Below are positions 48,164-54,835 of a stretch of DNA of 64,000 bases, piece by piece. The translations under genes were made by a program, and so were the position numbers. A model generated the notes under the pieces. That model did no database searches. It was given only the letters and a program-made list of their open reading frames with translations, and was not told the DNA's origin. Within the stretch, counting starts at the first letter, position 1, and each line of letters begins with the position of its first letter. Origin of the DNA: Gemmobacter caeni (GTDB taxonomy: Bacteria; Pseudomonadota; Alphaproteobacteria; Rhodobacterales; Rhodobacteraceae); the NCBI RefSeq assembly GCF_003054195.1, contig NZ_QBKP01000017.1:1-64000 (forward strand). The letters run 5' to 3'.

Positions 48164-49351
48164 ATGATTCTGACCAATGCCACAGTAGCGACGATGACGG
48201 GGGGCTATGGCCTGATTCCCGAGGCCGCCATTGTCCTTGAAGGCGACCGCATTGCCTGGGTCGGGCCGATGGGCGACCTGCCTGCCTCGGCCGCACCTGT
48301 CACCGATCTGGGCGGACGGCTGGTGACGCCGGGCCTGATCGACTGTCACACCCATCTGGTGTTTGGCGGCAATCGCGCACGGGAATTCGAGATGCGGCTG
48401 ACCGGCGCCTCTTACGAAGAAATCGCCCGCGCCGGCGGTGGCATTGTCTCGACCGTAAGCGCAACCCGCGCGGCATCAGAGGACAGCCTGCTCGCGCAGG
48501 CTCTGCCCCGGCTGGACCAGATGCTGACCGAGGGCGTGACGCGGACCGAGGTCAAATCGGGCTATGGCCTGGACATCGAGACCGAGCTTCGGATGCTGCG
48601 CGTGGCGCGGCGGCTGGCCACCCTGCGCCCGGTGCGGATCAGCACCACCTTCCTTGGTGCCCATGCCATTCCGGCCGAATACAAAGGTCGCGCCGATGAT
48701 TACATCACCGAACAGGTGATCCCCGCCCTGCACCGCGCCCATGCCGAAGGCTTGGTCGATGCGGTGGACGGTTTCTGCGAGGGTATCGCTTTTTCCCCCG
48801 ACCAGATCGCCCGCGTCTTTGCCGAGGCACGCGCATTGAACCTGCCCGTCAAGCTTCATGCCGAACAATTGTCGAACCTGCATGGCGCGGCGCTGGCGGC
48901 GCGGCACGGGGCGCTGAGTGCCGACCATCTGGAGTATCTGGATGCCGAAGGCGCGCAGGCCATGGCAGCGGCGGGTACGGTGGCGGTGATCCTGCCCGGC
49001 GCCTTCTACGCCCTGCGCGAAACGCAGCTTCCGCCCGTGGCGGCGCTGCGCGCGGCAGGGGTCGACATGGCAGTCGCGACAGATTGCAACCCCGGCACCG
49101 CGCCGATGACCTCGCTCTGCCTTGCCATGAACATGGCCTGCACCCTGTTCCGCCTGACACCGGAAGAGGCGCTGTCCGGCGCCACCCGCATCGCCGCCCG
49201 CGCACTGGGTCAGACCGAGGAAGGCCGGATCGCGCCCGGCTTCCGCGCCGATCTGGCGATCTGGCAGGCCCGGCACCCGGCAGAACTCGCCTATCGCATC
49301 GGGGCCACGCCCCTTCACGCCCGCATCTTCGGAGGCCAACTTGACGCCTGA
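48164..49351 (+). CDS. hutI: Imidazolonepropionase
   Basis: 395 residues. [20 protein letters not shown] is the metal His-x-His motif and substrate loop; LKLHAEQLS appears as [21 protein letters not shown] follows. It opens imidazolonepropionate to formiminoglutamate. Start at 48164 (GGGGAG upstream). Overlaps hutH by 11 bases. Confidence 0.97.
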
Positions 49352-50873
49352 AATCCTGATCCCCGGCCAAACCACGCTTGACCAGCTTGAACGGCTGTGG
49401 CGCACCGAAGCCCCGGCGCGTCTGGCACCCGAGGCCCGCGCAGGCGTCGAAGCCGCCGCAGCCAGAATCGCCGCCGCCGCCGCGGGCGACGTGCCGGTCT
49501 ATGGGGTGAACACCGGCTTCGGCAAGCTGGCGAGCCTGAAGATTGCCGCACAAGATACTGCAACGCTTCAGAAAAACCTGATCCTCAGCCATTGCTGCGG
49601 CGTGGGCGACCCGATGCCCCGCGCCACCGCGCGGCTGATGATGGCGCTGAAGCTGCTGTCGCTGGGCCGTGGTGCCTCGGGCGTGCGGTGGGAGGTCGTG
49701 GCGATGCTGGAGGCGATGCTCGACAAGGGCGTGACCCCGGTGATCCCGGCGCAGGGCTCGGTCGGCGCCTCGGGTGATCTGGCTCCGCTGGCACATATGG
49801 CCGCCGCCATGCTGGGCGCTGGCGAGGCAGAGTTCGCAGGCCAGGTAAAACCCGCCGCCGAAGCCCTTGCCGATGCTGGTCTTTCGCCGATCACACTTGG
49901 CCCGAAAGAAGGGCTGGCGCTGATCAACGGCACGCAGTTTTCCACCGCCTATGCGCTGGCCGGCCTGTTTGGCGCCTGGCGTGCGGCCACGACCGCGCTG
50001 ACTGTCTCGGCCCTCTCCACCGATGCGATCATGGGATCGACCGCGCCCCTGCGGCCGGAAATCCATTCGCTGCGCGGTCACGTCGGACAGATCGAAGCCG
50101 CCGCCTTCATGCGCGCGCTGCTGGACGGGTCGGAGATCCGCGAAAGCCACCGCGAAGGCGACAGCCGGGTGCAGGACCCTTACTGCATCCGCTGCCAGCC
50201 GCAGGTGACCGGCGCCGCGATGGACATTCTGCGCCAGGCCGCCCGCACGCTGGAGATCGAGGCCAATGCCGCCACCGACAATCCGCTTGTGCTCAGCGAC
50301 GGGGCCATTGTCTCGGGTGGCAACTTCCACGCAGAACCCGTTGGTTTTGCAGCAGATATGATCGCCCTTGCGCTCAGCGAGACCGGCGCCATCGCGCAGC
50401 GCCGCGTGGCGCTGATGGTAGACCCGACGCTCAGCTTCGACCTGCCGCCTTTCCTGACGCCGAACCCCGGCCTCAATTCGGGCCTGATGATCGCCGAAGT
50501 CACCACCGCGGCGCTGATGAGCGAGAACAAGCATCTGGCCCACCCTTGCGTCACCGACAGCACGCCGACCTCCGCCAATCAGGAGGATCACGTCTCCATG
50601 GCTGCGCATGGCGCGCGGCGGCTGGGGCGCATGGTCGACAACCTGAACGTCATTCTGGGGGTCGAGGCGCTGTGTGCCGCGCAGGGCGTGGAATTCCGCG
50701 CACCGCTGGCGACCTCTGCACCACTGGCGGGGGTGGTGGCGCGGTTGCGGACGGAGGTTCCGTCGCTGAAAGACGACCGCTACATGGCGCCCGATCTGGC
50801 TACCGCTGCGCGTCTGGCCGGCAGCGGCGCACTGGTGGAGGCGGCGGGCATTGCGCCCCCGGCGCTGGCATGA
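49341..50873 (+). CDS. hutH: Histidine ammonia-lyase
   Basis: 510 residues. The MIO prosthetic group comes from Ala-Ser-Gly at residues 143-145 in [12 protein letters not shown]. It removes ammonia from histidine to give urocanate. It starts at a TTG (49341), 6 bases after GGAGG, inside the hutI 3' end. Its stop overlaps the CoA-transferase ATG by 4 bases, coupling the two. Confidence 0.96.
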
Positions 50874-53141: not shown

Positions 53142-53152
53142 GGATCTCTTCC

Positions 53153-54835
53153 ATGAACAGCCGTCACAACACCCGCGACATCTATCCGCCCACCGGCACC
53201 ACGCTGAATGCAAAGAACTGGCAGGCCGAAGCGGCGCTGCGCATGCTGATGAACAACCTCCACCCCGATGTGGCGGAAAACCCGCATGAGCTGGTGGTCT
53301 ATGGCGGCATCGGCCGCGCCGCCCGGACGTGGGAGGATTTCGACCGCATCTGCGCCGCGCTGAAGGATCTGGAGGCCGATGAAACCCTGCTGGTGCAATC
53401 GGGCAAACCCGTCGCCATCGTGCGCACCCATGCCGATGCCCCCCGCGTGCTGATCGCCAATTCGAACCTTGTGCCGCATTGGGCGACATGGGAACATTTC
53501 AACGAATTGGATCGCAAGGGCCTGATGATGTACGGCCAGATGACCGCCGGGTCGTGGATCTACATCGGCACCCAAGGCATTGTGCAGGGCACCTACGAGA
53601 CCTTCGCCGAGGCCGGACGCCAGCATTACGCAGGCGATCTGACCGGCAAATGGGTGCTGACCGGCGGTCTTGGCGGCATGGGCGGCGCGCAGCCGCTGGC
53701 CGCCGTGATGGCCGGGGCCTGCTGCCTCGCGGTCGAGGTGGACGAGACCCGCATCGACTTCCGCCTGCGCACCCGCTACGTTGATGCCAAGGCGAAAACG
53801 CTGGATGAGGCGCTGGCGCTGATCGCCGACTGGACGGCGAAGGGCGAAGCCAAATCGGTGGGCCTGCTGGGCAACGCCGCCGAGGTATTCCCCGAACTCC
53901 TGAAGCGCATGAAGGAGGGCGGCCCCCGTCCCGACATCGTGACCGACCAGACCTCCGCCCATGACCCGCTGCATGGTTACTGCCCGGCGGGGTGGAGCGT
54001 GGGCGACTGGCGCGCCAAACAGGAAACCGCGCCTGTCGAAGTCGAACGCGCCGCCCGCGCCTCGATGAAACAGCATGTCGCGGCCATGGTGGGCTTCCAT
54101 GAGGCCGGTGTGCCCACCCTCGATTACGGCAACAACATCCGCCAGGTGGCCAGGGACGAGGGGCTGGAAAACGCCTTCGCCTTCCCCGGCTTCGTCCCCG
54201 CCTATATCCGCCCGCTGTTCTGCAAGGGCATCGGCCCGTTCCGCTGGGCCGCGCTCTCCGGCGACCCCGAGGACATTGCGAAAACCGATGCCGCGATGAA
54301 GAAACTCTTCCCGGAAAACAAACACCTGCACCGCTGGCTTGACATGGCGGGCGAACGCATCGCCTTCCAGGGCCTGCCCGCGCGCATCTGCTGGATCGGC
54401 CTTGGCGACCGCCACCGCGCCGGGTTGATGTTCAACGAGATGGTTGCCAGCGGCGAACTCAAGGCCCCCGTGGTCATCGGCCGCGACCACCTCGACTCGG
54501 GCTCCGTCGCCTCGCCCAACCGCGAGACCGAAGCCATGCGTGACGGCTCGGATGCTGTGTCGGACTGGCCGCTCCTGAACGCGCTGACCAACACCGCCTC
54601 GGGCGCCACCTGGGTCAGCCTGCATCACGGCGGCGGCGTCGGCATGGGCTTCTCGCAGCATTCGGGTGTGGTGATCGTGGCCGACGGCACGCCCGAGGCC
54701 GCGAAACGCCTCGAACGCGTGCTGTGGAACGATCCGGCCTCTGGCGTCATGCGCCATGCCGATGCGGGCTATGACATCGCACTCGATTGCGCGCGCGATC
54801 ACGGGCTGCGCCTGCCCGGCATCCTCGGCAATTGA
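53153..54835 (+). CDS. hutU: Urocanate hydratase
   Basis: 560 residues. N-terminal [23 protein letters not shown]-contact region [17 protein letters not shown]-terminal [15 protein letters not shown]. It hydrates urocanate to imidazolonepropionate, which HutI then opens. Last gene of the operon: hutI-hutH-CoA transferase-acyl-CoA dehydrogenase-hutU. Confidence 0.97.

Follow-up and report, generated by a model that had tools for sequence, protein, structure and literature searches.

A 64,000-nucleotide stretch of the Gemmobacter caeni genome (contig NZ_QBKP01000017.1, positions 1 to 64,000; hereafter the window) carries, within a histidine utilization (hut) operon, two adjacent genes that probably let bacteria use imidazolepropionate by returning it to urocanate. 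They encode a coenzyme A (CoA)-transferase of family III (CaiB/BaiF) and an acyl-CoA dehydrogenase (ACAD), referred to below as the pair. The pair most likely delivers urocanate to the urocanate hydratase HutU, imidazolepropionate being the simplest substrate from which it could do so. A preliminary description of this DNA had proposed an imidazolepropionate-to-urocanate module here, and the proposal has since gained from the recurrence of the pair beside hut enzyme genes or the regulator gene hutC, from its association, in one genome, with a hutU that has no hutH beside it, and from its presence in a genus that is probably Comamonas; its substrate, its direction and the recycling of CoA we infer from gene content.

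The pair lies in a head-to-tail run of genes (48164-54835), established from open reading frames and the sequence, in which hutI, hutH, the CoA-transferase gene, the ACAD gene and hutU follow one another (Table 1). The overlap between hutH and the CoA-transferase gene is 4 bases (ATGA) and that between the CoA-transferase and ACAD genes is 8 bases, while 11 bases separate the ACAD gene from hutU. These distances agree with the earlier account, which had read the genes from hutH to hutU as one coupled unit; the unit is a tight operon of five genes, with hutI as an added member. It belongs to the hut pathway, as the HutH, HutU, HutI and HutF models of NCBIfam all scored above their cut-offs at this one locus.

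By its domain and its conserved Asp, the transferase is a member of family III: PF02515 (CoA_transf_3) covers residues 4-365 of 379, nearly the whole protein, and Asp166, which we take to be the catalytic Asp expected of this family, is found in 14/14 aligned sequences. By its N-terminal, middle and C-terminal domains and by Glu363, which sits in a (Y/F)EG motif of the clade alignment and is presumably the catalytic base, the second protein is assigned to the acyl-CoA dehydrogenase superfamily. Neither protein passed a curated cut-off among the NCBIfam models listed, seven of which were for the transferase. The closest transferase models were those of mesaconate CoA-transferase (308 bits, 700 needed) and of the glutarate enzyme (287 vs 750), and the closest ACAD model was acryloyl-CoA reductase AcrC (353 vs 640), with glutaryl-CoA dehydrogenase at 194 vs 470; the carnitine models gave 143 vs 540 for CaiA and 122 vs 413 for CaiB. 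Since these scores fall far below the curated cut-offs, glutarate, carnitine, mesaconate and acryloyl identities were rejected. Within the same genome, the ACAD most similar to the one in the operon shares 39% identity with it.

To place the ACAD among its relatives we built a maximum-likelihood tree, which carries a long-branch warning and in which 33 ACADs formed one clade with support of 100/99 against nine outgroup ACADs; by this tree the ACAD of the pair belongs to a distinct clade of 33 sequences. The CoA-transferase gene is directly 5′ of the ACAD gene in all 33 locus rows (L030 and L129, G and L numbers denoting genomes and loci, are the same G. fulvus place, and in L029 the transferase is split) and in 13/13 further loci of the genus of G618. 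The distribution of the ACAD is rare and patchy. In draws of genomes that each include the window's own, it was found in at least 6/149 genomes of the family, at least 6/11 of the genus (Gemmobacter fulvus among them), at least 5/289 of the class and at least 9/398 of the phylum; these counts, based on ACAD matches at E values of 1e-100 to 1e-110, are lower bounds because only the best candidates from a loose first look were scored. Plasmids of named bacteria added 14 records, of which 13 were analysed and the third P. yeei record (H9) was left out. Paracoccus aminophilus JCM 7686 is a culturable carrier of the pair. A scan of named genomes with two very general ACAD motifs matched at least 80 loci; of the 80 listed, two belong to the clade and 78 were used as controls. 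Among viral contigs a single locus matched the ACAD in part, at 48%, and was not used further.

Hut enzyme genes were found within approximately 10 kb of the pair at 18 of the 33 distinct loci (the window plus 32, the G. fulvus place counted once), and three more, two in Sinorhizobium and one in Mesorhizobium, have hutC only; the flanks vary in length and are short in L024, L029 and L127. Among genomes outside the window's genus that were retrieved by ACAD similarity alone, 7/13 are hut-linked, against a baseline of 1.5% per genome when hut regions are assumed to occupy 60 kb of 4 Mb. None of the 78 control ACAD loci has hutU, hutI or hutF (E 1e-15), and L097 alone has a HutH-like match, at 34%. 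In the window's own branch, 13/16 rows show the order hutI-hutH-(hutG)-pair-hutU and two more have hutC only. The placement of the pair between hutH and hutU, for which the preliminary description had suggested searching, is thus found in relatives, and linkage in several lineages excludes the case it had raised of a pair absent from the hut operons of all of them.

Outside this branch the layouts differ. Two of three loci in one branch (L046 and L047) have a LysR gene and the pair near hutC and hutH. At L043, a LysR gene, the pair and a tripartite ATP-independent periplasmic (TRAP) transporter stand next to a full hut cluster, and at L039 hutH and hutU flank the pair on either side. L044, from genome G498, is alone on its branch and has the order hutC-hutU-pair-NCS1-like permease; no hutH was found within the fetched 19 kb around the pair, and a second hutU lies together with hutH 0.9 Mb away, so that one urocanase is grouped with the pair instead of with HutH. 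In Mesorhizobium (L134), hutC and an amino-acid transporter are beside the pair. Two Sinorhizobium plasmids have a divergent hutC-type gene on one side of the pair and, following the pair, an amino-acid ATP-binding cassette (ABC) transporter; no hut enzyme was found there within 9 kb, and the regulator of L137 passes the HutC cut-off. G. fulvus, where the pair is not hut-linked, has hutH-hutG-hutU on the same replicon about 30 kb off. In Pseudomonas the effector of HutC is urocanate, according to PMC12977541. These varied hut and hutC layouts point to urocanate as the product of the pair. All 19 pair-carrying genomes checked encode hutU, including 7/7 in which the pair is not beside hut genes, as against 147/398 genomes of the phylum draw.

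The physiology that such a module would explain was described long ago. Coote & Hassall 1973, by its title as cited in PMC5487837, PMC9157411 and PMC3953581, concerns the degradation of imidazolylpropionate by Pseudomonas testosteroni, now Comamonas testosteroni. The genus of G618 is probably Comamonas, because the ACAD of a named Comamonas metagenome-assembled genome is 89% identical to that of G618 and 97-98% identical to those of six other members. In this genus the ACAD was found in 14/41 genomes, and the CoA-transferase gene, hutH and hutC are near it in 14/14 copies.

We then examined the residues of the ACAD that set its clade apart. Its structural model (predicted local distance difference test score, pLDDT, 92.6, confident) has the fold of short-chain ACADs, with a TM-score of 0.95 and 41-42% identity to rat short-chain acyl-CoA dehydrogenase (SCAD, 1jqi) and C. 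difficile Bcd (5ol2). Residue 245 is acidic in 33/33 ACADs of the clade (30 Glu and 3 Asp) and in 0/78 controls, which have Gly (61), Ser (8), His (6), Asn (2) or Ala (1). Residue 271 is Gly in 32/33 of the clade and Phe in 76/78 controls, and Ser87, Thr90, Ala95 and Gly102, in one common helix, are further residues specific to the clade. These clade-specific residues fall in helices bordering the acyl pocket in ACADs, and by the numbering of medium-chain acyl-CoA dehydrogenase (MCAD) residues 87, 90 and 245 presumably border the pocket; our search of openly licensed papers did not find that numbering. The acidic residue 245 could hold a protonated imidazole and is a candidate contact.

In the mechanism that we propose, the pair would feed the hut pathway from the side. 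The CoA-transferase would load CoA onto imidazolepropionate, and the ACAD would take two hydrogens from imidazolepropionyl-CoA to give urocanoyl-CoA, its electrons passing through electron transfer flavoprotein (ETF) and ETF-quinone oxidoreductase (ETF-QO) to the respiratory chain. The CoA-transferase would then move CoA from urocanoyl-CoA to the next imidazolepropionate, freeing urocanate for degradation by HutU, HutI and HutF. We consider it fairly probable that the pair's substrate is imidazolepropionate itself, oxidised to the level of urocanate whatever the CoA donor, and, given that oxidation, we hold the CoA-exchange step to be comparably probable. The full version with CoA recycling is tentative, its chances falling somewhat short of even. 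The incomplete gene tables of nine annotated plasmid neighbourhoods contain no entry for a CoA ligase, and their only acyl-CoA thioesterase entries are in two P. yeei plasmids, roughly 8 kb from the pair. A module of two genes, with no ligase listed and a thioesterase only at that distance, fits a CoA shuttle like that of CaiB/CaiA.

The same substrate and product would also result if CoA came from succinyl-CoA or acetyl-CoA and urocanoyl-CoA were hydrolysed by a housekeeping thioesterase, a variant that is covered by our estimate for imidazolepropionate oxidation and is by itself unlikely. The two best curated transferase families, mesaconate and glutarate, use succinyl-CoA, both scoring below cut-off, and the gene of a housekeeping thioesterase need not be linked; however, the conserved module comprises only two genes, and the gene tables just described list no ligase and, in two plasmids only, a thioesterase about 8 kb off.

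A different substrate is suggested by other neighbours of the pair. A VanA-type Rieske oxygenase, a ferredoxin reductase, a HisC-like aminotransferase and a GlcD-like flavin adenine dinucleotide (FAD) oxidase recur as a group (Table 1), which adjoins the pair in G. fulvus and Mesorhizobium AR02, lies near hutC and hutH in Aureimonas and is found beside formaldehyde-detoxification genes in Shinella. With such neighbours the pair might act on N-methyl-imidazolepropionate or on another histidine-derived acid, such as cis-urocanate isomerised via a reduced CoA intermediate. The Rieske set, however, is found at 0/13 loci that have the pair inside a hut operon (12 rows plus the window), and the cis-urocanate version found no direct support here, so we regard a modified substrate as quite improbable. 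The Rieske group itself is a candidate island for N-methylhistidine demethylation and imidazole-lactate use, as its gene content suggests; a methylhistidine Rieske demethylase was not found in our search of openly licensed papers. In its widest form our proposal, which we put forward at slightly less than an even chance, is that the pair supplies the genes so far missing for imidazolepropionate catabolism, as an ATP-free, CoA-recycling system, and that in some bacteria it is part of a larger histidine-derivative island under hutC or LysR control, where a Rieske N-demethylase, a HisC-like aminotransferase and an FAD oxidase of the hydroxyacid type would process methylhistidine and imidazole-lactate.

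The pair might also run in reverse, activating urocanate and reducing it to imidazolepropionate as an electron sink, in the way that CaiB/CaiA, a reductive system, treats crotonobetaine. Of the curated ACAD models, that of acryloyl-CoA reductase scores highest and that of CaiA also matches, both below cut-off. Reduction, however, would draw off the urocanate on which the product of the adjacent hutU acts; uptake transporters and hutC accompany the pair in some modules without hut enzymes; most of the named hosts are aerobes from soil or the sea; and the genome encodes an ETF-QO domain. Together these points make the reverse reaction highly improbable. Equally improbable is an unrelated acyl-CoA, such as glutaryl-CoA with a succinyl-CoA:glutarate CoA-transferase, the place of the pair in the operon being fortuitous or serving to dispose of glutamate: a CaiB-type transferase and an ACAD do make up the glutarate arrangement, yet both glutarate models are far from reached, a comparison by eye did not show, at the corresponding position, the Arg with which glutaryl-CoA dehydrogenase presumably binds the distal carboxylate, and the linkage to hut genes and hutC is repeated in separate branches.

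Several points weigh against oxidation of imidazolepropionate by the pair. No hut enzyme gene or hutC was found in the fetched flanks of 12/33 loci, and in 10 of these 12 a LysR gene adjoins the pair. The figure of 18/33 is inflated by rows of the same genus and by near copies, and hut-linked loci are a minority in two branches of the tree (1/8, L043, and 1/4, L039). Control flanks are often short, reaching at least 18 kb in 37/78 and at least 10 kb in 62/78. Because hutU is present anyway in 16/27 rows of the window's own family in the phylum draw, its co-occurrence with the pair says less than the phylum count would imply. The link to the 1973 physiology is made at the level of the probable Comamonas genus and not for C. 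testosteroni itself. The presumed pocket position of residue 245 is taken from the MCAD numbering, and, with a reductase as the best-scoring curated ACAD model, the sequence leaves the direction unfixed. Finally, the assignment is founded on genes and sequence.

Table 1. Coordinates of the hut operon, of residues discussed in the text and of other features (window positions unless a contig or locus is named).
Feature	Position	Strand	Support	Remark
hutF, formimidoylglutamate deiminase	46739-48091	-	NF006684, 652 bits (cut-off 525)	divergent from operon
hutI, imidazolonepropionase	48164-49351	+	TIGR01224, 464 bits (cut-off 298)	first gene of the run
hutH, histidine ammonia-lyase	49341-50873	+	TIGR01225, 682 bits (cut-off 539)	TTG start, overlaps end of hutI
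Family III (CaiB/BaiF) CoA-transferase	50870-52009	+	PF02515, 419 bits	proposed urocanoyl-CoA:imidazolepropionate CoA-transferase
Asp166 codon, CoA-transferase	51365-51367	+	invariant in 14 aligned sequences	
Acyl-CoA dehydrogenase (ACAD)	52002-53141	+	PF02771, PF02770, PF00441	proposed imidazolepropionyl-CoA dehydrogenase
Glu245 codon, ACAD	52734-52736	+	clade-specific acidic residue	candidate imidazole contact
Glu363 codon, ACAD	53088-53090	+	(Y/F)EG motif of clade alignment	
hutU, urocanate hydratase	53153-54835	+	TIGR01228, 937 bits (cut-off 375)	11 bases 3′ of ACAD
Flavin-reductase-like gene	54931-55584		PF01613	3′ of hutU
Interval between LysR gene and hutF	46663-46727			
HutC elsewhere in the same genome	C5:204913-205584		above cut-off	other contig
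Rieske group	L129:2887-7542			
Rieske group	L134:11296-16152			
Rieske group	L145:10001-14895			
Rieske group	L143:10001-13330 and 17781-19598			
hut loci of G154	C7:67200-71226 and C3:51521-57012			
hutU matches, Thioclava nitratireducens plasmid	L127:10169-11850			two overlapping frames

Some features around the operon vary among relatives. In the related genome G154 hutC adjoins hutF, while the window has no hutC there, approximately 700 bases that include it being missing between the LysR gene and hutF. As a HutC above cut-off is encoded on another contig of the same genome, regulation by hutC may act in trans. In G154 the pair is at one of two hut loci, the other being a plain hutH-hutG-hutU; in G150, partial matches to hutU and hutH occur a second time on C17. 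The presence of hutF implies a need for HutG, the N-formylglutamate deformylase, which several relatives encode between hutH and the pair; no close HutG was found in the window's genome, where the best match to Paracoccus HutG has 26% identity. The flavin-reductase-like gene 3′ of hutU is kept at that place in L021, L026, L027 and L048. On the Thioclava nitratireducens plasmid the hutU matches fall in two overlapping frames, so the gene may be broken; it is missing from that plasmid's gene table, which is incomplete.

When produced by bacteria of the gut, imidazolepropionate has been associated with type 2 diabetes and cardiometabolic disease, and a 2025 review (PMC11872695) terms it a non-metabolizable product. 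In the openly licensed literature searched, we found no genes assigned to imidazolepropionate catabolism, which is weak evidence of absence because only openly licensed papers were covered. The kinds of protein are already known; new within those papers are the assignment to imidazolepropionate, the module recurring with hut genes and hutC, and the link to the 1973 work. If the assignment is true, a supposed dead-end metabolite linked to diabetes goes back to urocanate, a two-gene route provides an enzyme for assays and a metagenome marker of degraders, and genes become attached to a physiology described in 1973.

Among known systems, carnitine CaiB/CaiA likewise couples a family III CoA-transferase with an ACAD and exchanges CoA between product and substrate, as we propose for the pair; it differs in that the pair scores far below the curated carnitine models and would work in the opposite direction. 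The clostridial FldA/AcdA system combines a type III transferase with an ACAD acting on arylacryloyl-CoA and arylpropionyl-CoA, recycles CoA and is reductive and anaerobic; the pair resembles it in enzyme types, a likeness drawn from the general description of that system. The urocanate reductase UrdA interconverts urocanate and imidazolepropionate, as stated in PMC10882135. UrdA uses free urocanate, whereas the window's enzyme is an ACAD, and ACADs act on CoA thioesters; the direction proposed for the pair is also the opposite one. The degradation by P. (Comamonas) testosteroni titled in 1973 is the physiology that the module would explain, and a probable Comamonas genus carries the pair, but that degradation has no genes assigned to it in the openly licensed papers searched. 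The short-chain ACADs, rat SCAD and C. difficile Bcd, share the fold of the window's ACAD and differ from it by the acidic residue 245, Gly271 in place of Phe, Ser87, Thr90 and Gly102, all specific to the clade of the pair.

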